A stretch of DNA of 64,000 nucleotides from Ruminococcus sp. FC2018 (lineage in GTDB: Bacteria > Bacillota > Clostridia > Oscillospirales > Ruminococcaceae). Below are positions 47,452-63,659 of the stretch, one piece after another; the first letter of the stretch is position 1, and each line of letters opens with the position of its first letter. Made by a program: the position numbers and the translations under genes. A model generated the notes under the pieces. That model had not been told where the DNA came from. It did no database searches and saw nothing but the letters and a program-made list of their open reading frames with translations. Location of the stretch: contig NZ_JHXH01000001.1 of the NCBI RefSeq assembly GCF_000621805.1, forward strand, positions 62,001-126,000. Direction: 5' to 3'.

Positions 47452-48918
47452 TTGCAGCATCATGTTGTCATGGCTGATAATGATGATATAGGTCGTAAGG
47501 CGGCTGAGCTTATCTTGTCCTTTAACGGTTATAAGGTGGACAGCTTTAAATCCGGCGAGGATATGCTGAAATTCCTTGAAGACCATTCTCCGGATCTTGT
47601 TATGCTTGATGTGAAAACTGCGGGTATAGATGGCTTTGAAACGCTCAAACGCATGAAAGCCGATGAGAAAACCGCTAAAATACCTGTTATTTTTCTTGCG
47701 TCGGGTCACGATTCAAATACCGAGAGCAAGGCACTTGCTTCGGGAGCGTTGGATTTTGTGGCAAAGCCTTATGTTACAAGTATCCTGCTTCTGAGGGTCA
47801 AGAATATGATACAGCTGGGCAAACTGAGAAATGAACTCAGTACCGAGGTGGAGCGTAAGTCCGGTGAGGCTGTCAGGGAACATGAAAAAAGCGAAAGACT
47901 CTCTCTTCAGGTGGTGCGCACCCTGGCGGGAGCTATTGACGCAAAGGATAAGTACACCAACGGTCACTCTTCAAGAGTTGCCGATTATACCCGTGAGATA
48001 GCCAAGCGTGCAGGTTATTCTCAAAGCGCACAGGAAGAGATATACATGATGGGACTTTTGCACGACGTTGGCAAGATAGGTGTACCGGATACGGTAATAA
48101 ATAAGCCGTCTAAGCTTACCGATGAGGAGTATTCGCTTATAAAGACCCACCCCATGGTCGGTTACGGTATACTTAAAAATATAACCGAGATGCCAAAGCT
48201 GGCTATCGGCGCAAGGTATCACCACGAAAGATACGACGGAATGGGTTATCCCGACGGACTTAAAGGGGAGGATATCCCCGAGGAGGCAAGGATAATCGCT
48301 GTTGCCGATGCATACGATGCTATGTCGTCCAGAAGAAGCTATCACGGCGTGTTTGCACAGGAGTATATCAGAAGCGAGCTGGAAAAAGGAAAGGGAAAAC
48401 AGTTTGACCCTAACTTTGCAAGGATAATGCTTGAGATAATGAGTGAGGACGAGGATTATAAGCTCCGTGAGCACTATGATACTTCAGATGACGCTCAGGG
48501 ACAGAAAAATGACGGCTTTTCAGACAGCGAGGAAGAGGCTGTTTTTGCGTATATCTCAATGCTGGAAGCAGGCGGTCTGAATACAGCTCTTGGTCTGAGA
48601 TACTGCATGAATGATGTTGATTTCTATGCCGAGATGCTCCGTGAATTTACTGCCGGCGCAGAGGACAGAGAAAAACAGCTTACTTCAAGCCTTGAAAAAG
48701 GCGACGTGTCAAAATACCGTGTATATATCCATTCTCTGAAAAATGCCTCCAGGACTGTGGGAGCGGAAAGACTTTCAAGGCTGGCAGAGGAGATAGAAGA
48801 AGCCGCAAGAAATAAGGATGTTGAGTTCCTGAAAGAGAATAACGACGAGCTTATCGCTAATCTTAAAATGACAGTGGGCGGTATCCTTATGGCGGTCAAT
48901 ATGTATGGAAAAGAATAG
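47452..48918 (+). CDS. REC-HD-GYP-HPt signalling protein
   Basis: A 488-residue cytoplasmic protein of three signalling domains. The N-terminal receiver domain (about 3-120) has the phospho-acceptor Asp53 in LVMLDVK and the acidic pair DND near residue 9-11. A helical linker and an HD-GYP domain follow (about 155-345), with HDVGKIGVPD (His204, Asp205) and HHERYDGMGYPDGLKG intact. The C-terminal region (about 365-480) has an HPt-like helix with His427 in YIHSLKNASRTVGA. REC-HD-GYP proteins degrade cyclic di-GMP under phosphorylation control; an added HPt domain would let the protein pass phosphate on. The TTG start at 47452 follows GGGGAGGGG by 7 nt. No histidine kinase is adjacent. Confidence 0.88.
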   Translation: MQHHVVMADNDDIGRKAAELILSFNGYKVDSFKSGEDMLKFLEDHSPDLVMLDVKTAGIDGFETLKRMKADEKTAKIPVIFLASGHDSNTESKALASGALDFVAKPYVTSILLLRVKNMIQLGKLRNELSTEVERKSGEAVREHEKSERLSLQVVRTLAGAIDAKDKYTNGHSSRVADYTREIAKRAGYSQSAQEEIYMMGLLHDVGKIGVPDTVINKPSKLTDEEYSLIKTHPMVGYGILKNITEMPKLAIGARYHHERYDGMGYPDGLKGEDIPEEARIIAVADAYDAMSSRRSYHGVFAQEYIRSELEKGKGKQFDPNFARIMLEIMSEDEDYKLREHYDTSDDAQGQKNDGFSDSEEEAVFAYISMLEAGGLNTALGLRYCMNDVDFYAEMLREFTAGAEDREKQLTSSLEKGDVSKYRVYIHSLKNASRTVGAERLSRLAEEIEEAARNKDVEFLKENNDELIANLKMTVGGILMAVNMYGKE

Positions 48919-50246: not shown

Positions 50247-51080
50247 ATGCTTTGGAAAAAAGACGTGCTTTTTTGCGATATAAGCCCCACAACTTATGCG
50301 ATATCAGAGGCAAAGGAAAAGGCTAAGCGCTACATAAAGGACTTTACCGGAAAGGATGTTTTTGCAAGGGGAACAACTAAAAAGAGACTGCGCAATATTG
50401 TTTCTACCCACAGCAATCATCTTATCAAAAAAGGAAAGGGCATTGACCCTGTTTTGCAGGAGAATAAAGCTGTGAATATTGATATTGCCTGCAAAAAGAT
50501 CAACGGTATAGTTATTCGTCCGGGAGAGACGTTTTCTTTCTGGAGAACTGTGGGAAAGATCACAAGAAAAAAAGGATACAAGGACGGAAGAATAATCTCC
50601 GCAAATAAGCTTACACCCGGTCTTGGCGGCGGACTGTGCAACCTGGGAAACACTATACACCTTCTGGTCCTTCACAGCCCTATGGAGGTTACTGAGTTCC
50701 ATACCCATTCGGATGCCCTTGCACCTGATGAAGGAGAAAGGATCCCAATGAGTTCGGGAACGTCGGTGTGCTATAACTATGTGGATTTTCGCTTTAAAAA
50801 TACTACCGACCAGCCGGTACAGCTGTGTGTATGGTGCCAGGATGGAGAGCTCAGAGGCGAACTCAGGAGCAGGTCACAGTTCCCGTGGACATATGAGATA
50901 GTGGAGGAAGACCACCACTTCGTAAAAGAAGACGATAAGTATTTCAGAGTGTCAAAGATCTATAAGCTTACCAAGGACCGTGAGACAGGCAGGGTAATAG
51001 ACAAAAAGCTTGTAAGAGATAATCATTCCGAAGTTATGTTCGACTATGACCAGATACCTCGTGAGCTTATAAGATTATAA
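50247..51080 (+). CDS. VanW-family protein
   Basis: A 277-residue protein containing the VanW domain. The domain signature (about 88-190) includes RPGETFSFWRTVGKIT, GGGLCNLGNTIH and TEFHTHSDA. VanW occurs in some vancomycin-resistance clusters but its role is unknown, and no vanA/vanB-type ligase is near, so resistance is not implied. It lacks a signal peptide. GGAGTGG precedes the ATG and the gene follows the YqeG gene by 2 bases. Confidence 0.9.
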   Translation: MLWKKDVLFCDISPTTYAISEAKEKAKRYIKDFTGKDVFARGTTKKRLRNIVSTHSNHLIKKGKGIDPVLQENKAVNIDIACKKINGIVIRPGETFSFWRTVGKITRKKGYKDGRIISANKLTPGLGGGLCNLGNTIHLLVLHSPMEVTEFHTHSDALAPDEGERIPMSSGTSVCYNYVDFRFKNTTDQPVQLCVWCQDGELRGELRSRSQFPWTYEIVEEDHHFVKEDDKYFRVSKIYKLTKDRETGRVIDKKLVRDNHSEVMFDYDQIPRELIRL

Positions 51081-51272: not shown

Positions 51273-52001
51273 ATGAAAGGGATATATAAGATAGCTGACG
51301 TTATTATAAGCGTCAGTTCGCTGTATGATTCGGTGCATGAATACTGCCGTGATTATGAAAGCACGGGCAAACCTGACTTTGAGGTCAATATATCTCAGAA
51401 CGATATAGATCATGAGCGGGAACGCTCTGTTAAAACTGCGCTGGCTGAGGGAAGAAAGCCCTATGACGCCTCTGACGATTATCTTGAAGAGCTTGCTGTG
51501 TACCGTAAGATATCCGAGAGGATGCCTTACTATGATACATTTCTATTTCATGGCTCATGTATAGCTGTTGACGGAGTGGGGTATCTTTTTACCGCCGCCA
51601 GCGGAACAGGCAAATCCACACATTCAAAGCTGTGGCGGGAGTATCTTGGTGACAGGGCGGTCATGGTAAATGACGACAAGCCTCTTATCAAGGTCTCCGA
51701 TAACGGCGTTATCATCTACGGAACTCCTTATAACGGAAAGCATCGGCTTGGTGAAAACATATCTGTGCCGCTTAAAGCAGTAGCGGTGCTTGAAAGGGCG
51801 GAGAAAAACTTTGCAGTTCCTGTAAATGTGCCTGAGGTGTATCCACGGATGCTTCAGCAGATGTACAGACCCTCCGATCCTGTCGCCCTGGCAAGATCTA
51901 TGGCTTCGCTTGATAAAATGCTGGCGCAGACCGAACTTTACAGACTTGGCTGCAATATGGATATCAGTGCGGCTCAGACCGCTTACAATGCAATGAAATG
52001 A
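51273..52001 (+). CDS. HPr-kinase-like P-loop protein
   Basis: A 242-residue protein related to the C-terminal half of HPr kinase. The P-loop SGTGKST is at about residues 110-116 (AASGTGKSTHSKLW) and the acidic VNDDKPLI motif at 132-139. The GTPYNGKH loop resembles that of the kinase. The N-terminal HPr-kinase domain is missing and the HPr-recognition segment is not conserved. Such truncated relatives occur beside PqqD-like recognition proteins in peptide-modification loci, where some phosphorylate a peptide Ser. Phosphorylating a peptide partner rather than HPr is thus the favoured idea, though not shown. The ATG at 51273 follows AGGAG by 7 nt. It is the first gene of the 51.3-54.2 kb locus. 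Confidence 0.75.
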   Translation: MKGIYKIADVIISVSSLYDSVHEYCRDYESTGKPDFEVNISQNDIDHERERSVKTALAEGRKPYDASDDYLEELAVYRKISERMPYYDTFLFHGSCIAVDGVGYLFTAASGTGKSTHSKLWREYLGDRAVMVNDDKPLIKVSDNGVIIYGTPYNGKHRLGENISVPLKAVAVLERAEKNFAVPVNVPEVYPRMLQQMYRPSDPVALARSMASLDKMLAQTELYRLGCNMDISAAQTAYNAMK

Positions 52002-52016
52002 AAGGAAAATAAAGAC

Positions 52017-52277
52017 ATGAAACTCAGAAAAGATTTTATCGTCCATGACACAGGAAAAGAGACAATGCTTGTTGCTACAGGAAAGGCAAAGTTTTCCGGA
52101 ATAGTAAAGGGCAACAAAATGCTTGGCAATGTGCTTGAGCTGCTGAAGAAGGACACCACCGAAGCGCAGATAGTCAGAACGCTTCGTGAGCAGTACGATG
52201 CTCCGGAGGGAAAGATAGAATCTGATGTCCATAAGGTCATCGTTGAGCTGAAAAAAATAGGAGCTATTGATGACTGA
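52017..52277 (+). CDS. PqqD-like peptide-recognition protein
   Basis: The 86-residue protein fits the PqqD/RRE family, winged-helix proteins that bind the leader of a peptide to be modified. The pattern is a beta-strand start (DFIVHDTGKETMLV), a conserved small-residue core and two helices (MLGNVLELLKKDTTEAQIVRTLREQYDAPEGKIESDVHKVIVELKKIGAI in part). AAAGGAAAA lies before the ATG. It lies 15 bases after the kinase-like gene, and its last codons overlap the start of a degraded peptidase-like gene. This supports a peptide-modification operon. Confidence 0.85.
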   Translation: MKLRKDFIVHDTGKETMLVATGKAKFSGIVKGNKMLGNVLELLKKDTTEAQIVRTLREQYDAPEGKIESDVHKVIVELKKIGAIDD

Positions 52278-52409
52278 GATAACAAATTTTCAGGACTAAC
52301 TGAAAAAGAACGGGACATTGACCTATACAAACGTCGGTACCGACATGATGCCTCTGCTTTTGTATATGATGAAAGACCGGAGAGTTATAATGTATTTTAT
52401 AAGAAACGC
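52270..52409 (+). pseudogene. Remnant of an S24/S26 peptidase-like gene
   Basis: A start ATG (52270) overlaps the pqqD-like stop and reads MTEITNFQD, then meets TAA at 52297-52299. The same frame goes on as LKKNGTLTYTNVGTDMMPLL, which resembles the start of S24/S26 peptidase-like proteins that follow pqqD-like genes in gut Clostridia. The active-site Ser of the usual GxSMMP motif is Asp here. A second frame then carries DERPESYNVFYKKR, like the next conserved block of that family. So there is a nonsense change, a lost catalytic residue, a probable deletion with frameshift and a missing 3' part. The assignment rests on recalled family motifs. Confidence 0.5.
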
Positions 52410-52465
52410 TGTTTACGGATAGTGATATCCGGATCGATCCGGTACAGTTTTAAGGAAAGATGTAA

Positions 52466-54175
52466 ATGAAAAATCATATCCTTAGGTGGCTTTATGCCAT
52501 ACCTGGAAGAAAAAAAATATATATCCTTCTGCTGATGTTCGTCCAGGCAATGAACGGTGCCAGCGGTGTTGTTTATGCGGTTTTTCTGCGAAACATTGTT
52601 GACAGTGCCACAGAGGGTGAAAAAAACGAGTTCTGGCTTTATGTCGGTTTGCTTATTGCCCTTGTATGTCTGCAGATAGTTTTGCGTGCTGTAATAAGAT
52701 GGCTTACCGAGCTTTCAAAGGCAACTTTTGAAAACACCTTCAAAGCCCGGCTCATGGATAATATCCTGAAAAAGGACTTTGCTAAGGTCAACGCAGTCCA
52801 TTCCGGTGAATGGCTCAACAGGCTGACTAACGATACCGTTGTGGTGTCGGAAAGCTACGTTGATATACTTCCCGGGCTTGCGGGAATGACGGTAAAGCTT
52901 ATCAGCGCTCTTGTGATGATACTGGTGCTTGATATGCGCTTTGCGTTTATTATCATCCCCGGCGGGATCGTACTTTTGTTTTTCACCCACGCTTTCAGAC
53001 GTGTTTTAAAAAGACTGCATAAAAATACTCAGGAGAAGGACGGAAAACTCCGTATTTTCCTTCAGGAGCATATCGGTGACCTTATGATGATACGTTCCTT
53101 TGCAGCAGAAAAACAAACGTCTGACGAGGCAACGGTAAAAATGGCTGACCATAAGGCAGCAAGAATGCGAAAAACCAGATTTTCAAATTTCTGCAACATC
53201 GGTTTTGGCGTGGCAATGAACGGAATGTATGCCTTTGGTGCTATCTACTGTGCATACGGTATCCTCAGCGGCACCATTTCCTTTGGTACCATGACAGCTA
53301 TAACACAGCTTATAAGCCAGATCCAGATGCCTTTTGCAAATATAAGCGGTTATCTTCCCAAGTTCTATGCAATGACCGCCAGTGCGGAAAGACTTATGGA
53401 GATCGAACAGTTTGAAGATGACGGTGAAACACCTCTTGAACTTGATGAAATAATGGAGTTCTATGACCATGACTTTGAAAGAATGGGACTTGAAAACGCA
53501 GGCTTTACCTATTATCCATTTGTGGACAGCCTTGATGCCTTGAAAAAGGACGACCAGCCAAAGGTGATAAGCGGTATAAGCACATATATCCGAAAAGGTG
53601 AGTATGTTGCGTTCACAGGTCACAGCGGCTGCGGAAAATCCACAGTCATTAAGCTCCTGATGAGCATATATAAGCTTGATGAGGGAGAAAGATATATCTG
53701 TGTTGCAGGCGGTGAGAGAAAGGAGCTTTCCCAGAAGTATCACAGACTCTTTGCTTATGTGCCTCAGGGGAACCGCCTTATGAACGGAACTATAAGAGAA
53801 GTTGTGGCATTTGCGGATAAAAGTGCCGCCAATGATGACCGAAGGATAAACAAGGCTCTTGATATAGCTTGTGCGGGAGAGTTTGTGAGAGAGCTTGACA
53901 AAGGCGCAGATACAATGCTTGGTGAGCGAGGCACAGGTCTTTCAGAGGGACAGATGCAGCGTATAGCGATAGCAAGGGCTATTTTCTCGGGCAGCCCCAT
54001 ACTTCTGCTTGACGAAGCCACAAGTGCCCTTGATGAGCAAACGGAAAAAAAGCTTCTTGAAAATCTCAGAAGTATGACAGACAAGACTGTGGTTATAGTC
54101 ACCCACCGACCTGCGGCACTGAAAATATGTGACAGGGTGCTTAAATTTACCGAGAACGGTATAGTTGAAAAATAA
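52466..54175 (+). CDS. ABC transporter, fused permease and ATPase (exporter type)
   Basis: A 569-residue half-transporter of the peptide/lipid export class. The N-terminal membrane domain has six helices (about residues 18-310). The ATPase domain has Walker A TGHSGCGKST, the signature LSEGQMQRIAIARAI and Walker B PILLLDEATSALDE, followed by a His in the H-loop (VTHRP). No N-terminal C39 peptidase domain is present, so leader removal would need another protease. AAGGAAAG precedes the ATG. It ends the locus of kinase-like, PqqD-like and degraded peptidase-like genes and is the likely exporter of the matching product. Confidence 0.88.
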   Translation: MKNHILRWLYAIPGRKKIYILLLMFVQAMNGASGVVYAVFLRNIVDSATEGEKNEFWLYVGLLIALVCLQIVLRAVIRWLTELSKATFENTFKARLMDNILKKDFAKVNAVHSGEWLNRLTNDTVVVSESYVDILPGLAGMTVKLISALVMILVLDMRFAFIIIPGGIVLLFFTHAFRRVLKRLHKNTQEKDGKLRIFLQEHIGDLMMIRSFAAEKQTSDEATVKMADHKAARMRKTRFSNFCNIGFGVAMNGMYAFGAIYCAYGILSGTISFGTMTAITQLISQIQMPFANISGYLPKFYAMTASAERLMEIEQFEDDGETPLELDEIMEFYDHDFERMGLENAGFTYYPFVDSLDALKKDDQPKVISGISTYIRKGEYVAFTGHSGCGKSTVIKLLMSIYKLDEGERYICVAGGERKELSQKYHRLFAYVPQGNRLMNGTIREVVAFADKSAANDDRRINKALDIACAGEFVRELDKGADTMLGERGTGLSEGQMQRIAIARAIFSGSPILLLDEATSALDEQTEKKLLENLRSMTDKTVVIVTHRPAALKICDRVLKFTENGIVEK

Positions 54176-54227: not shown

Positions 54228-54681
54228 CCACCTGCTATGCAGGTGGAATAAATAAACTGTAGTAAGAGCATAATCTGTTCCGCACAATAGACAAAAACGC
54301 CTCCTTGATATACAATGTAATAGGCTACCAACCGTATTACAAATAATCAAGGAGGGATCACCAGATGGATAATAAATCTAATGATATGTATAGTTTAGCA
54401 CATACAAGCCGGAAATGTCAATATCATATAGTGTTTGCGCCAAAGTACAGACGAAAAGCTATCTACGGAAAGCTAAAGAGAGATATTGGAGCAATACTGA
54501 GGGAGTTATATGGTGTATGAACAAATATCCTTTAAGGAATACATGGAACCGTTTAAAGATGTAACATAAGTAAAAGAATCCAGTAATGCAGTAGGTAGCT
54601 TTAGCTTATTACGTGCCCCTTAAGGGGCGGCTGGTGAAGAGCCCTTTTAGGACTGTTATAAAACCACCGGCTTTTCCGGTG
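54228..54681 (+). mobile_element. Internally deleted IS200-family element
   Basis: A left hairpin CCACCTGC/GCAGGTGG (54228-54246) and right hairpins (54615-54628; 54665-54681) frame a tnpA remnant. In the leader, CCTCCTTGAT (54300-54309) pairs with ATCAAGGAGG (54346-54355), with an inner TGTAATA/TATTACA stem. This hides the tnpA ribosome-binding site, a known IS200 control feature. The exact ends are not resolved because IS200 elements have no inverted repeats. Confidence 0.75.
54365..54569 (+). pseudogene. tnpA: IS200 transposase TnpA remnant
   Basis: The frame from 54365 codes for 51 residues, starting MDNKSNDMYSLAHTSRK and including CQYHIVFAPKYRRK, the N-terminus of IS200 TnpA. It stops at 54518-54520. 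A second frame (from 54513) continues with EQISFKEYMEPFKDVT, which resembles the C-terminal end of the same family. The middle, with the catalytic HUH motif and Tyr, is deleted. The gene cannot make an active transposase. Confidence 0.85.
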
Positions 54682-58093: not shown

Positions 58094-60046
58094 GTGTTGT
58101 GTTCAAAAAAATATTGCAAAGTATCATTGTGCACTATTTCACTGTTGATACTCACTGCTGTATTTAGCTTTGCTTTCCCCTTTTCATTAGCTGCAAGCGC
58201 ACAGCAGTCGGAAGCCGATGTCAGCAGCTGGTCTGAATTGCAAAAAGCGGTAGACAACGCCGTATCAGGTGATACGATCACATTGAATGCGGACATAACA
58301 GCAGGGGAAAATGACACATCGCTCGTCATACCCAATGGAAAAATGCTAACGCTTGACCTTAACGGACATACCATAGACCGTGCTCTGAAGGAACATAAAG
58401 GCAACGAGGGTACTGCCTTTTTTGTGCGCTCCGGTGCTATGCTTACCGTAACAGACAGATCGCTCAGCGCCGCAGGCAAGATCACAGGCGGATATTCAAC
58501 TCACGGAGGCGGCATCAATAATACCGGAGCGGTGATCCTCGAAGGCGGGTGCATCACGGGAAACACCGCCAAGGATTCCGGCGGCGGTATCGCCAACTAC
58601 GGTGACCTGGTCATTAAAGGCGGTTCGGTAACAGCCAACACCTCTCTTACACGCGGTGGAGGGGTGCTTAATGATGTCAAGGGATATATGACTGTTGACG
58701 AGGCGCTGATATACGGCAACAAAGCTCCTGAGGATACCGAGATATACAACCTGGGATCTGTGAAGGCTATCGGAGGCAAAACTGTTGATATCACTGCCGT
58801 TAAGTCAACTATGGATCTGGTAACGCTTCTGCCTTCTCTGGCATTGGTGATCGTTTTGTTCTTTTCAGTTTTTTTGGACAACTATCTGGAAAGAGATCAG
58901 AAAAGGATAATGTATGCTATATCCATACTTGTATTTACTTTGATCCTACAGAATTATTTTGATATATGGGTATACGTTTCGGGAAAAAGTATACTCTTCA
59001 GAACAGTTGTATCTATCTATGGTTATGCTGTGCGCCCTGCCATACTGGCACTGTTTATTCACATAATCAAACCCGGCGGAAAATATAAACTTGTGTGGGC
59101 GGCGGTGTGCATAAATGCCGGGATATATATGACTGCACTATTCTCACCGCTTGCATTTTCATTCTCTTCATTCGGCCATTTCAAATCGGGACCGTTGAAT
59201 CCAAGCTGTCTGGTAGTGAGCGTGCTGCTTTTTTTGTACTGCTTGTATCTTACGTTCAGCGTGTTTCGCCCAAAGGAGAAAAAAGAGACCTGGCTGCCTG
59301 TTCTTGCACTTGTGCTTATAAGCGCATCGGTGATAATGGATTATACCGTTGAATACAGCGAGCTGTCTGTGGGCTTTCTGACGATAGCTATTACCATAAG
59401 CTGCGTAATGTATTACATCTGGCTTCATCTTCAGTTCGTCCGTGCTCATGAGAGAGAATTGCAGGCGGAGCATCGGATCCAGATCATGATGACCCAGATT
59501 CAGCCCCATTTTCTGTTCAATACCCTGACTGCTATCCGTGCGCTTTGTGTAAAAGACCCTGATGCTGCTGTGCATACCATAGGATTGTTCAGTACCTATC
59601 TGCGCCAGAATCTTCAATCCTTGGATAAAGCAGGGCTCATACCGTTTTCAAAGGAACTGGAGCACACACGGGTCTATACCGAGATCGAAATGATACGGTT
59701 TCCCAATATCAGTATACAATACGATATCCGTGACAATGAGTGCTGTGTTCCTGCCCTTACGGTGCAGCCGCTTGTGGAAAACGCCATAAGGCACGGCGTG
59801 CGCAGCAAGGAAAAAGGCATTGTAAAAATAAGCGCTTACCGTGAGGATAACAGTCACCTGATAGTGATAGAGGATAACGGTATCGGATTTGATGTGCATA
59901 AGACAGACGATACGGATGATCTGCATATCGGAATATCTAACGTCCGTGAGCGCATAGAGAAAATGTGCGGCGGCACGGTAGAAATAGACAGCAGACCGGG
60001 TGAAAGCACGAAAGTCTTGATGAGGATACCGGTAAGTGAGGAGTGA
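58094..60046 (+). CDS. LytS-like sensor histidine kinase with beta-helix-type ectodomain
   Basis: A 650-residue membrane kinase. A signal peptide (about 10-35) leads to an extracellular region (about 40-235). Its repeated short strands, such as NTGAVILEGGCITGN, GGGIANYGDLVIKGG and RGGGVLNDVKGYMTV, point to a right-handed beta-helix. Six or seven membrane helices follow (about 240-455). The kinase part is of the LytS/YehU class: the phospho-acceptor His472 lies in MTQIQPHFLFNTLTA and the ATP-binding region ends with EDNGIGFD and GISNVRERIEKMCGGT. GTG at 58094 follows GGGGTGG. The next gene encodes its partner. The ectodomain resembles modules of the secreted protein at 61-63.5 kb, suggesting it senses or responds to a carbohydrate or wall ligand. 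Confidence 0.85.
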   Translation: MLCSKKYCKVSLCTISLLILTAVFSFAFPFSLAASAQQSEADVSSWSELQKAVDNAVSGDTITLNADITAGENDTSLVIPNGKMLTLDLNGHTIDRALKEHKGNEGTAFFVRSGAMLTVTDRSLSAAGKITGGYSTHGGGINNTGAVILEGGCITGNTAKDSGGGIANYGDLVIKGGSVTANTSLTRGGGVLNDVKGYMTVDEALIYGNKAPEDTEIYNLGSVKAIGGKTVDITAVKSTMDLVTLLPSLALVIVLFFSVFLDNYLERDQKRIMYAISILVFTLILQNYFDIWVYVSGKSILFRTVVSIYGYAVRPAILALFIHIIKPGGKYKLVWAAVCINAGIYMTALFSPLAFSFSSFGHFKSGPLNPSCLVVSVLLFLYCLYLTFSVFRPKEKKETWLPVLALVLISASVIMDYTVEYSELSVGFLTIAITISCVMYYIWLHLQFVRAHERELQAEHRIQIMMTQIQPHFLFNTLTAIRALCVKDPDAAVHTIGLFSTYLRQNLQSLDKAGLIPFSKELEHTRVYTEIEMIRFPNISIQYDIRDNECCVPALTVQPLVENAIRHGVRSKEKGIVKISAYREDNSHLIVIEDNGIGFDVHKTDDTDDLHIGISNVRERIEKMCGGTVEIDSRPGESTKVLMRIPVSEE

Positions 60047-60050
60047 AAAA

Positions 60051-60860
60051 ATGTATATCGTATGCGTAGACGATGAACCGTTGGCAGTGGAGGATACTCT
60101 GGCTATGTGCAGGAGCATATATTCCGACGTATATGCAAAAGGATTTTGCAAGGTGGACGATGCACTGGAATGGATAAGCTCAAATCCCATTGATATTGCA
60201 CTGCTTGATATTGATATGCCTGATATGAACGGAATAACCATGGCTGCACGGATCAGGGAGCTCAAGCCTGATACGGTGATACTGTTTCTGACTGCTTATA
60301 AGGAATTTGCCTATGATTCATTTTCGGTGCACCCAAGCGGATACCTGCTCAAGCCTGTGATGCCGCAGATGCTCAAAAGCGAGATAGAGTATGCGATGTC
60401 ATCCCGCCCGAAAAAAGATATTCAGCTTATCAAAGCTCGGACTTTCGGCAACTTTGATCTGTTCGTAAAGGGCAAACAGGTCACATTTAAGCGTTCCAAG
60501 GCAAAAGAAATGATGGCGTTTCTTATCGACCGCCGTGGCATGAGCGTGACTCGTGCGGAGATATCTGCTGTTTTATTTGAGGACTCGCTTTACGATCACA
60601 GCAGACAGAAATACCTTGATGCTATTATCCGCAGTCTGCGTGATACTTTAAGGGAATATGGCATAGATGACCTTCTTCAGATGGAGCGTACAGGTCTGCG
60701 CATAATTCCCGAAAAGATAGAATGTGATATGTACCGCTTCTACCGGGGAGATAGCGAGGCGATCCGGTCATACCGTGGAGAATATATGGAATCATATTCC
60801 TGGGCGAGTCTGATAGAAGCAGATATGCTGTCAATACGCAACAAGCGCAGCCAACAATAG
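60051..60860 (+). CDS. Response regulator with SARP/BTAD-like output domain
   Basis: A 269-residue protein. The receiver domain (1-120) has the acidic pair Asp7/Asp8, the phospho-acceptor Asp53 in ALLDIDMPDMNG, and the conserved Thr and Lys (TAYKEF..YLLKP). The C-terminal part (about 130-265) starts KARTFGNFDLFVKGKQVTFKRSKAKEMM in part, a winged-helix of the SARP/OmpR type. A short BTAD-like helical region follows. LytS-like kinases usually pair with LytTR regulators, so this output domain is less usual. The ATG at 60051 lies 4 nt after the kinase stop, and GAGGAG overlaps that stop. Confidence 0.88.
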   Translation: MYIVCVDDEPLAVEDTLAMCRSIYSDVYAKGFCKVDDALEWISSNPIDIALLDIDMPDMNGITMAARIRELKPDTVILFLTAYKEFAYDSFSVHPSGYLLKPVMPQMLKSEIEYAMSSRPKKDIQLIKARTFGNFDLFVKGKQVTFKRSKAKEMMAFLIDRRGMSVTRAEISAVLFEDSLYDHSRQKYLDAIIRSLRDTLREYGIDDLLQMERTGLRIIPEKIECDMYRFYRGDSEAIRSYRGEYMESYSWASLIEADMLSIRNKRSQQ

Positions 60861-60983: not shown

Positions 60984-63515
60984 ATGGCGGCTGCCACCAA
61001 CACAGCACAACCATCTTACACCCAAAACGGTGTTACTATTGAAGTTGATGACCCGGGTGACACACAAAGCGGAGGCGGCTTCTTTGTTACGGCCGAAAAA
61101 CATGCAACAGTCAGTGCTCCGACCGGGTATGTAATAACGAAAGCAGAGTTTACCGCATCACATTATAATATAGAAATATTAAAATCAAATATAGGAACTG
61201 TAACTTACACCGAAACAACTGCCACCGTTAATGATATTTATGCCGGGACGTTTATTGTTGAAGCGTATGGCAAGAATGATATGGTACAGATCAGCAGTGT
61301 AACGGTCTGCTATGAGCCCAAATCGGACGACGTCAAAGGCGTACTGCTCAACAAGACCGCTGAAACCCTCGGCGTTGGCTCGCAAGTGAAGCTTAAAGCA
61401 AGAGTTATCCAGGAAGTTGCTGATCACAAAGACGTAGTATGGTTGAGCGACAATACGGACGTTGCAACAGTTGATCAAACCGGCAATGTTACAGCTGTAG
61501 CACCCGGCACTGCGACTATCACTGCGACCGCTACAAACGGTACCAATTCAAACACAGCTGACGATAAGACAGCTACCTGCACAATAATGGTGCTTACACC
61601 TATTGCGTATCTTGACTGGGACGCAGATAATAAGGCGGTCGTTGAAAAGAATGGCGATAACGCCTGCAAGCTCTACAACGTTATCCAGAGCACTGACGGC
61701 GATCTGGATCTGGATTCGGGATGGTATATTGTAAACAGCAACGTAACGATCAACGGTCTGGTCAGGATAAAAGGCGATGTTCATCTTATCCTCTGCGACA
61801 ATGCAAAGATGACCGTTAATAATACCGATTCCAAAAATCCCGATAATTATCAGGAATCCCCATTTGCTATCGAAGTCAAAGAAAACAACAGCCTGACCGT
61901 CTATGGGCAGAGCGAAGGTGATAATGCGGGAGTGCTGAATCCTATATGCAGCAAAGGAAATAGCATCAGCCTTCGTGAAAATTCAAGCATGACGGTAAAC
62001 AGCGGCAGGGTGACCACTAAAGCCGGAATCTACGGCGTTTTAACTCTTGGAACACTGACGATAAACGGCGGCGATGTGACATTCCACGGCAACAGCCGCG
62101 GCATTCTTCTTAACAAAAGTGCTAACAGCACCTATAATTATCCGTCCGGCGATCTGACGATAAACGGCGGAAGAACCACTGCTTATTCTGATACGTTTAG
62201 CGGGGCGATCTATAATAATGGCGATGGAGAAGTAAAATTTGCCGATAATATGTTTTTCACAGGGAAGGACAATAGAGACGACAGCTTAAAGGTTTTAAGG
62301 ATCACTGCTCCATTAGACATTTATTATTATTATTATTATTATTGGGTGCGTATCGAACCTGTTGCCGATGTCGCCGAAGTATCCCTCAACAAGTCTGAAA
62401 CAACTATCGCTGTCGGCGGCAAGGAAACGCTGAGCGCAACTGTAAGTCCTATAAATTCTGTTGGCACTGTGACATGGAAAAGCAGTGATGAAACAGTAGC
62501 AACGGTAGATGAAAGCGGTGTTGTGACCGCTGTCAGCGAAGGCACAGCCACCATAACCGCAACCGCCACAAACGGAACAGAAGAAACCGATGATGATAAG
62601 ACAGATACCTGTACAGTTACCGTGGAAGCGGACAAAAACTACATCAGCAGCGCAAGCCTCTCCCTTAACGGCGAGATAGGTGTTAACCTCTACATCAAGC
62701 TCGGCAATCTCATCGGCGATGGCGCTTATGTTATGGTCAAAGGACCAAACGATACCGAGGCAAAGAGAGTAGATCTCAATAGTGAATTGTATGACATCGA
62801 TCAGAACGCCTACAAGGTAAGCTGTCCTGTATATGCTCCGCAGATGGGCGAAAAAGTCGAGTTCACGCTGTACAACAAAAACAACGACCAGCACGAGATA
62901 TGGAACTCTGCAAAAACGGACAGCTACGAAGTTTACAGTTATTCTGTGAACGACTACATCGAAACAGCTAAGATCAACGAAAAGGCTTCTTATAAACTCA
63001 AAACTCTCGCAGGCAAAATGCAGAACTACGGAGCGTGGTCAAGAGATTACCTTATCGCAAGCAAACAGATAAGCAGCGATACAGCTGCGATAGCCACGGC
63101 GAAAGATGTAGAAGATGTTGGCGTAGGTACATTTGAAGACTGCAAGATCATCAAGAGCGACAGCTTTGTTGTGGAAGGATTGAGCGTTTCGCTCAGCCTT
63201 GACTCCAAGACAGCACTCAGAATTTACTACAAAGGCGACAAGATAGATGACATCACAGCATTTTGCGGGGATGAAAGTGTAACTTTAAAAACAGGCACGG
63301 CAAGAGATATGAATTATGTTGAGATAGATAATATCCCTGCACATCATCTTCGCGACAACTATGAATTTACCTTTGGCGACAAGGGAACAGCGACAGTCAG
63401 CGCATATTCATACTGTTATCTTGTACTTGCAAACAGCACAAACGAAAAGCTGAAAAGCACAGTCAAGGCAATGTATGAGTACAGCGAAACGGCAAAAATT
63501 TACTTTAATCAATAA
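60984..63515 (+). CDS. Ig-like (BIG2) repeat protein lacking a signal peptide
   Basis: The 843-residue frame holds, in order, a beta-rich domain (1-110), a BIG2 Ig-like domain (about 115-200, VLLNKTAETLGVGSQVKL..ATVDQTGNVTAVAPGTATITATA) and a carbohydrate-binding-like or beta-helix region (about 205-440) with TINGG repeats. A run of seven Tyr follows, then a second BIG2 domain (about 460-550) and a long C-terminal domain typical of secreted Ruminococcus proteins. No signal peptide is encoded: an in-frame TGA lies directly before the ATG, no promoter is evident and the ribosome-binding site is poor. The first residues (AAATNTAQPSYTQNGVTIEV) look like the mature N-terminus of a secreted relative, so the leader seems to have been lost. 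It may be a non-functional gene. Confidence 0.8.
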   Translation: MAAATNTAQPSYTQNGVTIEVDDPGDTQSGGGFFVTAEKHATVSAPTGYVITKAEFTASHYNIEILKSNIGTVTYTETTATVNDIYAGTFIVEAYGKNDMVQISSVTVCYEPKSDDVKGVLLNKTAETLGVGSQVKLKARVIQEVADHKDVVWLSDNTDVATVDQTGNVTAVAPGTATITATATNGTNSNTADDKTATCTIMVLTPIAYLDWDADNKAVVEKNGDNACKLYNVIQSTDGDLDLDSGWYIVNSNVTINGLVRIKGDVHLILCDNAKMTVNNTDSKNPDNYQESPFAIEVKENNSLTVYGQSEGDNAGVLNPICSKGNSISLRENSSMTVNSGRVTTKAGIYGVLTLGTLTINGGDVTFHGNSRGILLNKSANSTYNYPSGDLTINGGRTTAYSDTFSGAIYNNGDGEVKFADNMFFTGKDNRDDSLKVLRITAPLDIYYYYYYYWVRIEPVADVAEVSLNKSETTIAVGGKETLSATVSPINSVGTVTWKSSDETVATVDESGVVTAVSEGTATITATATNGTEETDDDKTDTCTVTVEADKNYISSASLSLNGEIGVNLYIKLGNLIGDGAYVMVKGPNDTEAKRVDLNSELYDIDQNAYKVSCPVYAPQMGEKVEFTLYNKNNDQHEIWNSAKTDSYEVYSYSVNDYIETAKINEKASYKLKTLAGKMQNYGAWSRDYLIASKQISSDTAAIATAKDVEDVGVGTFEDCKIIKSDSFVVEGLSVSLSLDSKTALRIYYKGDKIDDITAFCGDESVTLKTGTARDMNYVEIDNIPAHHLRDNYEFTFGDKGTATVSAYSYCYLVLANSTNEKLKSTVKAMYEYSETAKIYFNQ
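62321..62341 (+). repeat. TAT trinucleotide repeat within the Ig-like gene
   Basis: Seven TAT codons (Tyr) in a row followed by TGG. A slippage-prone microsatellite that would change Tyr number without a frameshift. Confidence 0.8.
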
Positions 63516-63533
63516 CAAAGGGGAGTAAAAGTG

Positions 63534-63659
63534 ATGAAAAAAGAGTATTTGTAATTGGAAATTGAGGTCATCAGGTTCCAGTCGGAGGATGTTATCGTAA
63601 CAAGCTGTTCAACACAGACTGACTGTGGGTCGGAACTCACACCAATGCCTGTCGGATAG
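63534..63659 (+). pseudogene. Small peptide gene with an in-frame stop
   Basis: An AAAGGGGAG Shine-Dalgarno lies before the ATG at 63534. The frame reads MKKEYL, TAA (63552-63554), then LEIEVIRFQSEDVIVTS and a Cys/Thr-rich end to TAG (63657-63659), 41 residues in all with the stop. The pattern of Lys-Lys-x-Tyr near the start and a hydrophobic/acidic core resembles small peptide genes common in gut Clostridia, often with Pro-Glu where Leu-Glu stands here. The single stop makes it a likely pseudogene, or a sequencing or assembly error. Confidence 0.5.

Follow-up and report, generated by a model that had tools for sequence, protein, structure and literature searches.

Do the kinase, binder, peptidase and exporter genes lying together in this stretch of Ruminococcus DNA form a system that modifies and exports a peptide, and how much of it is left? 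We analysed the whole stretch of 64,000 nucleotides, hereafter the window. An earlier note, made from the sequence alone, had placed four elements at 51273-54175 (an HprK-like kinase, a PqqD-like protein, a remnant of an S24/S26 peptidase and an ABC exporter), and all four were found there. We put at roughly 0.8 the probability that they are a damaged cassette of the linear polyphosphorylated peptide (LPP) type, in a variant of Ruminococcus and its relatives that works as proposed below. The main text of the paper defining this class (Popov et al. 2026, PMC13381572) describes clusters with a precursor, an HprK-like kinase, a RiPP recognition element (RRE), a SipW-like peptidase, an MsbA-like exporter and an NTP transferase. 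It gives no cyclase among them, and its reference cluster is lppAKBSDN of Paenibacillus alginolyticus.

The kinase and its neighbours

The kinase gene (51273-52001, plus strand, 242 aa) starts with an ATG at 51273, preceded by a GGAGAG ribosome-binding site, and stops at 52001. Its product, an HprK-like peptide kinase of LppK type, keeps the motifs FHGS, SGTGKST and NDDKP, and H93, G111, G113, K114 and D135 are invariant among 33 relatives. The earlier note had described an HPr-kinase-like protein deprived of the kinase's N-terminal domain, and the match is indeed confined to the C-terminal domain (residues 110-166 of the long open reading frame; 18.2 bits, below the cut-off). The N-terminal half is the protein's own, not that of HPr kinase, and is conserved across the 33 relatives. 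No PDB sequence matched the kinase profile significantly, but in a fold search the predicted structure (pLDDT 95) matches PEPCK and HPr-kinase folds, giving a PEPCK/HPr-kinase C-terminal fold. The protein shares with HPr kinase/phosphorylase the P-loop kinase core, the His and Asp-Asp motifs and the fold of the C-terminal domain, and differs from it in the missing N-terminal domain, the low sequence score and its setting among peptide-modification genes.

The second gene (52017-52277, plus strand) encodes an 86-aa PqqD-like RRE of LppB/B1 type with a TbiB1/TfuB1-like fold. The PqqD assignment of the earlier note was borne out by Pfam (2.4e-9, 37.8 bits against a cut-off of 23.4). The binder profile matches TbiB1, TfuB1, LppB and PbaB1; the lasso B1 proteins score best, and the match to LppB itself is weak (E 0.003). 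N33 and D70 of the window protein align without gaps with N33 and D70 of LppB (LppB numbering as in PMC13381572), and among relatives N33 is invariant and D70 nearly so. The last gene (52466-54175, plus strand) encodes a whole ABC protein, an MsbA-like exporter of LppD type (569 aa, ABC_membrane and ABC_tran both above cut-off). The peptide reading of the earlier note had been tied to a PqqD match and to a kinase not alignable with HPr kinase over its whole length; the former lies above cut-off and the latter alignment is partial.

By sequence comparison, the four-gene locus is not a chance assembly, because 360 of 383 pattern-matched stretches of genome contigs encode kinase relatives and the neighbouring genes recur. 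These are PqqD, a SEC11/SipW-type peptidase, the exporter and often NTP_transf_5; a methyltransferase, TraX or a radical-SAM/SPASM gene is rarer. The genes most commonly run in the order kinase, PqqD, peptidase, exporter and NTP_transf_5, with PqqD before the kinase in some loci. We sampled 298 genomes from the same family, and 45 of them encode the kinase.

Decay of the peptidase and a second partial cassette

The nearest relative found is locus L032 (RUG460), with identities of 82% for the kinase, 90% for PqqD and 95% for the exporter. In it, PqqD and the exporter are separated by an intact S24/S26-type peptidase gene and a TraX-like gene, and it thus provides the intact peptidase that the earlier note proposed to look for in related genomes. 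Alignment with L032 (6987-8166) identifies the window's counterpart (52270 to about 52430, plus strand) as the remnant of a SEC11/SipW-type S24/S26 leader peptidase of LppS type, fused to a TraX-like 3' end. Its start carries an in-frame TAA and a change of the nucleophile Ser to Asp (GTSMMPLL to GTDMMPLL), and a single deletion of about 1 kb relative to L032 has joined this start to the last TraX-like codons and removed most of the peptidase as well as the TraX-like gene. The broken peptidase of the earlier note is hence a true remnant. In nine intact sequences from relatives Ser28, His68 and Asp83 are invariant; they look like the counterparts of the catalytic S29, H68 and D93 of LppS, with which we equated them without a direct alignment.

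The locus had been called partly decayed. This holds for the peptidase and for a TraX-like gene; the kinase, PqqD and exporter show no decay. Their dN/dS relative to L032 is 0.086, 0.069 and 0.062, respectively (0.043 and 0.118 for two neighbouring genes), so that all three look to be under purifying selection, a signal that may stem mostly from the time before the deletion. Synonymous divergence between the window exporter and that of L032 (8191-9897) is 0.38, against 1.2 for the kinase and 0.7-0.9 for flanking genes; this low value suggests recombination. Directly 3' of the exporter lies an IS200/IS605-type transposase-like remnant (54365-54520, translation judged by eye), a possible agent of rearrangements.

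The same genome holds a second partial cassette on contig 10, with a kinase remnant, PqqD, an intact peptidase, a methyltransferase-like gene and NTP_transf_5. The latter family is not represented beside the window cassette; contigs 10 and 11 have it, as do 26 of 80 related loci. The two cassettes have complementary losses, and every core function searched for has an intact copy. Hence, it is possible, judging from gene content, that a working pathway is split over two partial cassettes, which we infer to cooperate.

A family of precursor peptides

The earlier note had found no precursor. This is correct for the operon itself, but comparison of related genomes revealed small open reading frames near the cassettes that share a leader and that a precursor profile finds widely. 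The family consists of peptides of 29-50 residues with a conserved leader Tyr, the motif F-[DE]-x-EDVITxS and an acidic variable tail. The residue following Phe-Asp/Glu is mostly small, and EDVITxS comes next. Over 31 peptides, the Tyr is found in 29/30, Phe(-3) in 31/31, Asp/Glu(-2) in 25/31 and the Ser in 30/31, counts for which the anchoring expression fixed some of the EDVI columns, not Tyr or Phe.

A decayed member lies in the window itself, about 9.4 kb downstream of the cassette (63534-63659, plus strand; MKKEYL*LEIEVIRFQSEDVIVTSCSTQTDCGSELTPMPVG). It matches the precursor profile, is interrupted by an in-frame TAA at 63552 and has an intact paralogue at position 129267 of contig 1 (G000:C1:129267). 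The source genome has five copies in all: three intact ones (C1:129267, C1:135277 on the minus strand and C2:202647), the window copy broken by the stop codon and one with a frameshift at C10:5845.

Precursors and kinases occur together. Of the 298 family genomes, 45 have the kinase, and the profile finds a precursor in 27 of these; among the 253 others it does so in 2 (p 4e-24). Because related genomes are not independent, the count by genus is fairer: 17/27 with the kinase against 0/99 without (p 2e-14). Several precursors directly precede a cassette. Against the link speaks that one was detectable, within the fetched stretch, in only 16 of the 59 loci having 2.5 kb upstream. We used the profile for this association because the pattern EDVITA matches unrelated proteins; its matches in many genomes were orotate phosphoribosyltransferase and other such proteins, and were rejected. 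A literature search for EDVITTS returned no match.

Some cores contain Cys. A radical-SAM gene accompanies 4 of 4 loci with a Cys in the core and 1 of 23 without (p 3e-4), two of the four being closely related. This link predicts a product combining phosphate and thioether at those loci. In the source genome, a radical-SAM/SPASM maturase (L114 8972-10294, minus strand) lies close to two intact precursors, about 3.6 kb from C1:129267, and belongs to the same family as the gene beside cassettes L042, L044, L057 and L060.

Association with surface proteins and lipoproteins

Directly upstream of the decayed precursor, the window encodes a large surface protein with Big_2 Ig-like domains (60984-63515, plus strand), which shares its C-terminal domain with the protein (L114 1839-5249) preceding an intact precursor. 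The tandem units of giant surface protein and precursor, at 60984-63659 of the window and at G000:C1:125838-129392, have nearly the same C-terminal domain; scans of three giant proteins gave no Pfam match for it. For 52 distinct peptides the upstream sequence was long enough to look for this arrangement; 39 of them follow, within 120 bp, a same-strand open reading frame of at least 300 residues, against 65 of 1219 control small open reading frames. Of the upstream proteins inspected whose start is covered, most begin with a signal peptide, and the C-terminal domain is common to many.

The tails of lipoproteins adjoining the peptides resemble the core of their own locus (15 pairs, some of them doubtful lipoproteins; permutation p 0.002). 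For example, the core PPEGEEVEI of L103 faces the tail PPEGEEIDPFQ, and the core ILFGDITWEN of L221 the tail IDFGSIIWK. In L075 the lipoprotein ends in a full leader and core, and ELP[FIV][IV]P is common to tails and cores in many loci. Genome-wide, the ELPxxP-tail DNA pattern alone is weakly associated (8/45 against 8/253) and a reversed control pattern matches about as often; therefore, only tails adjoining cassettes or precursors count as evidence. A match to ELPIIPVR at window position 47975, read in an alternative frame within a response-regulator gene, was taken as chance.

These patterns evoke a rather doubtful idea, that in these gut bacteria LPP peptides serve as surface-docking ligands, each encoded together with a giant secreted protein and often with a membrane-anchored lipoprotein. 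The lipoprotein tail, as a mimic of the core, would compete with the modified peptide for one site on the giant protein. The peptide would then govern display or release of that protein. Relative to the main text of PMC13381572, the position of the peptides behind giant secreted-protein genes and the core-like lipoprotein tails are new. That text gives the biological role of LPPs as unknown, and the ties between precursor genes and particular secreted partners in the Ruminococcus variant are a new clue to it.

Proposed pathway and alternative explanations

The earlier note had suggested a system that modifies, perhaps by phosphorylation, and exports a peptide. Comparative evidence and the LPP paper favour this reading, for a system akin to lasso pathways that has no cyclase, and by analogy the gene set very probably phosphorylates, trims and exports small peptides. 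The PqqD-like protein would bind the leader of the small peptide through the conserved Tyr and the strand after it, and the HprK-like kinase would phosphorylate the precursor, once bound, at the near-invariant EDVITxS serine. A SEC11/SipW-type Ser-His-Asp peptidase would then cut after F-[DE]-small. NTP_transf_5 could add further groups, as could a methyltransferase, a TraX-type acyltransferase or a radical-SAM enzyme in some clusters, and the ABC protein would export the core. In the source genome, the window would provide kinase, binder and exporter; the contig 10 cassette, which lost its kinase, would provide peptidase, a second binder and the nucleotidyltransferase; and the precursors would come from C1:129.3 kb, C1:135.3 kb and C2:202.6 kb.

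Across the related cassettes the enzymes are of the same types as in LPP clusters and share their common order: kinase, RRE, SEC11/SipW-type leader peptidase, MsbA-like exporter and often an NTP transferase. There is no cyclase, and the discrete RRE has the Tyr-fixing Asp and Asn of LppB. According to the main text of PMC13381572, LPPs carry several phosphates on one Ser, RRE-dependent cleavage follows F-E-T, and the precursor motif is YxxPxVLxHQxIxFETxxS. The peptides of Ruminococcus and its relatives likewise have a Tyr leader, a hydrophobic position, F-[DE]-small before the likely cut, which fits F-3, E-2 and T-1 of LppA, and a conserved Ser after it. They differ in lacking the HQ element, often the Pro of YxxP (seen in 13 of the 31 peptides, but in no copy from the source genome), in a Tyr-to-Phe spacing of 10 instead of 13 and in the EDVITx between likely cut and Ser. 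Moreover, one genome can have several precursors, scattered and tied to lipoproteins and to the genes of giant surface proteins; there are radical-SAM, methyltransferase or TraX-type extras; and in the source genome the set is split over two damaged cassettes. Ruminococcus, Clostridia, radical SAM and lipoprotein are not named in the main text of that paper. The window has an LppK-type kinase, an LppB-type RRE and an LppD-type exporter; its LppS-type peptidase, intact on contig 10 and in relatives, is destroyed, so that the window does not by itself make up a complete LPP cluster. On sequence grounds we class the whole system as an LPP variant with part of the leader motif and an incomplete window copy.

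The most serious alternative is that both cassettes are decaying, that the pathway no longer works in the source genome and that the locus is a relic. In the window the peptidase and the TraX-like gene are destroyed, as is the kinase on contig 10; of the five precursor copies, two are broken; and an IS200-like remnant sits just downstream of the cassette. Such a dying system is possible, if unlikely, given that dN/dS is 0.06-0.09 for the intact kinase, binder and exporter, that three precursors are intact, and that the complementary losses leave every core function searched for with an intact copy. A different target is quite improbable: the substrates might be the large surface proteins or lipoproteins, whose tails the cassette would, for instance, phosphorylate, with the small peptides as accessories. 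It would account for the 39 of 52 precursors (control, 65/1219) directly behind large, mostly secreted-protein genes, for the tails resembling own-locus cores (p 0.002) and for the L075 lipoprotein ending in leader and core. Yet the leader motif for PqqD-type binding sits on the small peptides, and surface proteins with signal peptides would leave by another route.

Finally, it is very improbable that the locus is what remains of a paeninodin- or pseudomycoidin-type lasso cluster after loss of the cyclase and the B2 protease. As the earlier note stated, HprK-like kinases and PqqD proteins do occur together in such clusters, which share with ours the kinase K, the PqqD-like B1, the nucleotidyltransferase N and the ABC exporter D (PMC8498205, PMC7533575), and lasso B1 proteins are the best matches of the PqqD profile. 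However, our cassettes have no macrolactam cyclase and no lasso-type precursor, the peptides being unlike the lasso precursors reported for Ruminococcus. The source genome has no match to the B2 leader protease (PF13471), relatives have a SEC11-type peptidase instead of B2 in their gene order, and no cyclase-like gene recurs in cassette neighbourhoods. Two full-length Asn_synthase genes lie far from the cassettes and are not told apart from AsnB. These results agree with the earlier view that a full lasso pathway is unlikely. The precursor profile of the Ruminococcus variant can be searched in genomes, and the source genome offers a natural split of the pathway.

Flanking genes

A VanW-like gene (PF04294) lies immediately 5' of the window cassette (50247-51080), and proteins resembling its product are encoded 5' of the cassette in two related loci (L050 581-1411 and L070 4947-5783). 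In the region 5' of the surface protein (58094-60860) a membrane protein is encoded whose C-terminal part resembles a histidine kinase; a response-regulator-like gene follows it.
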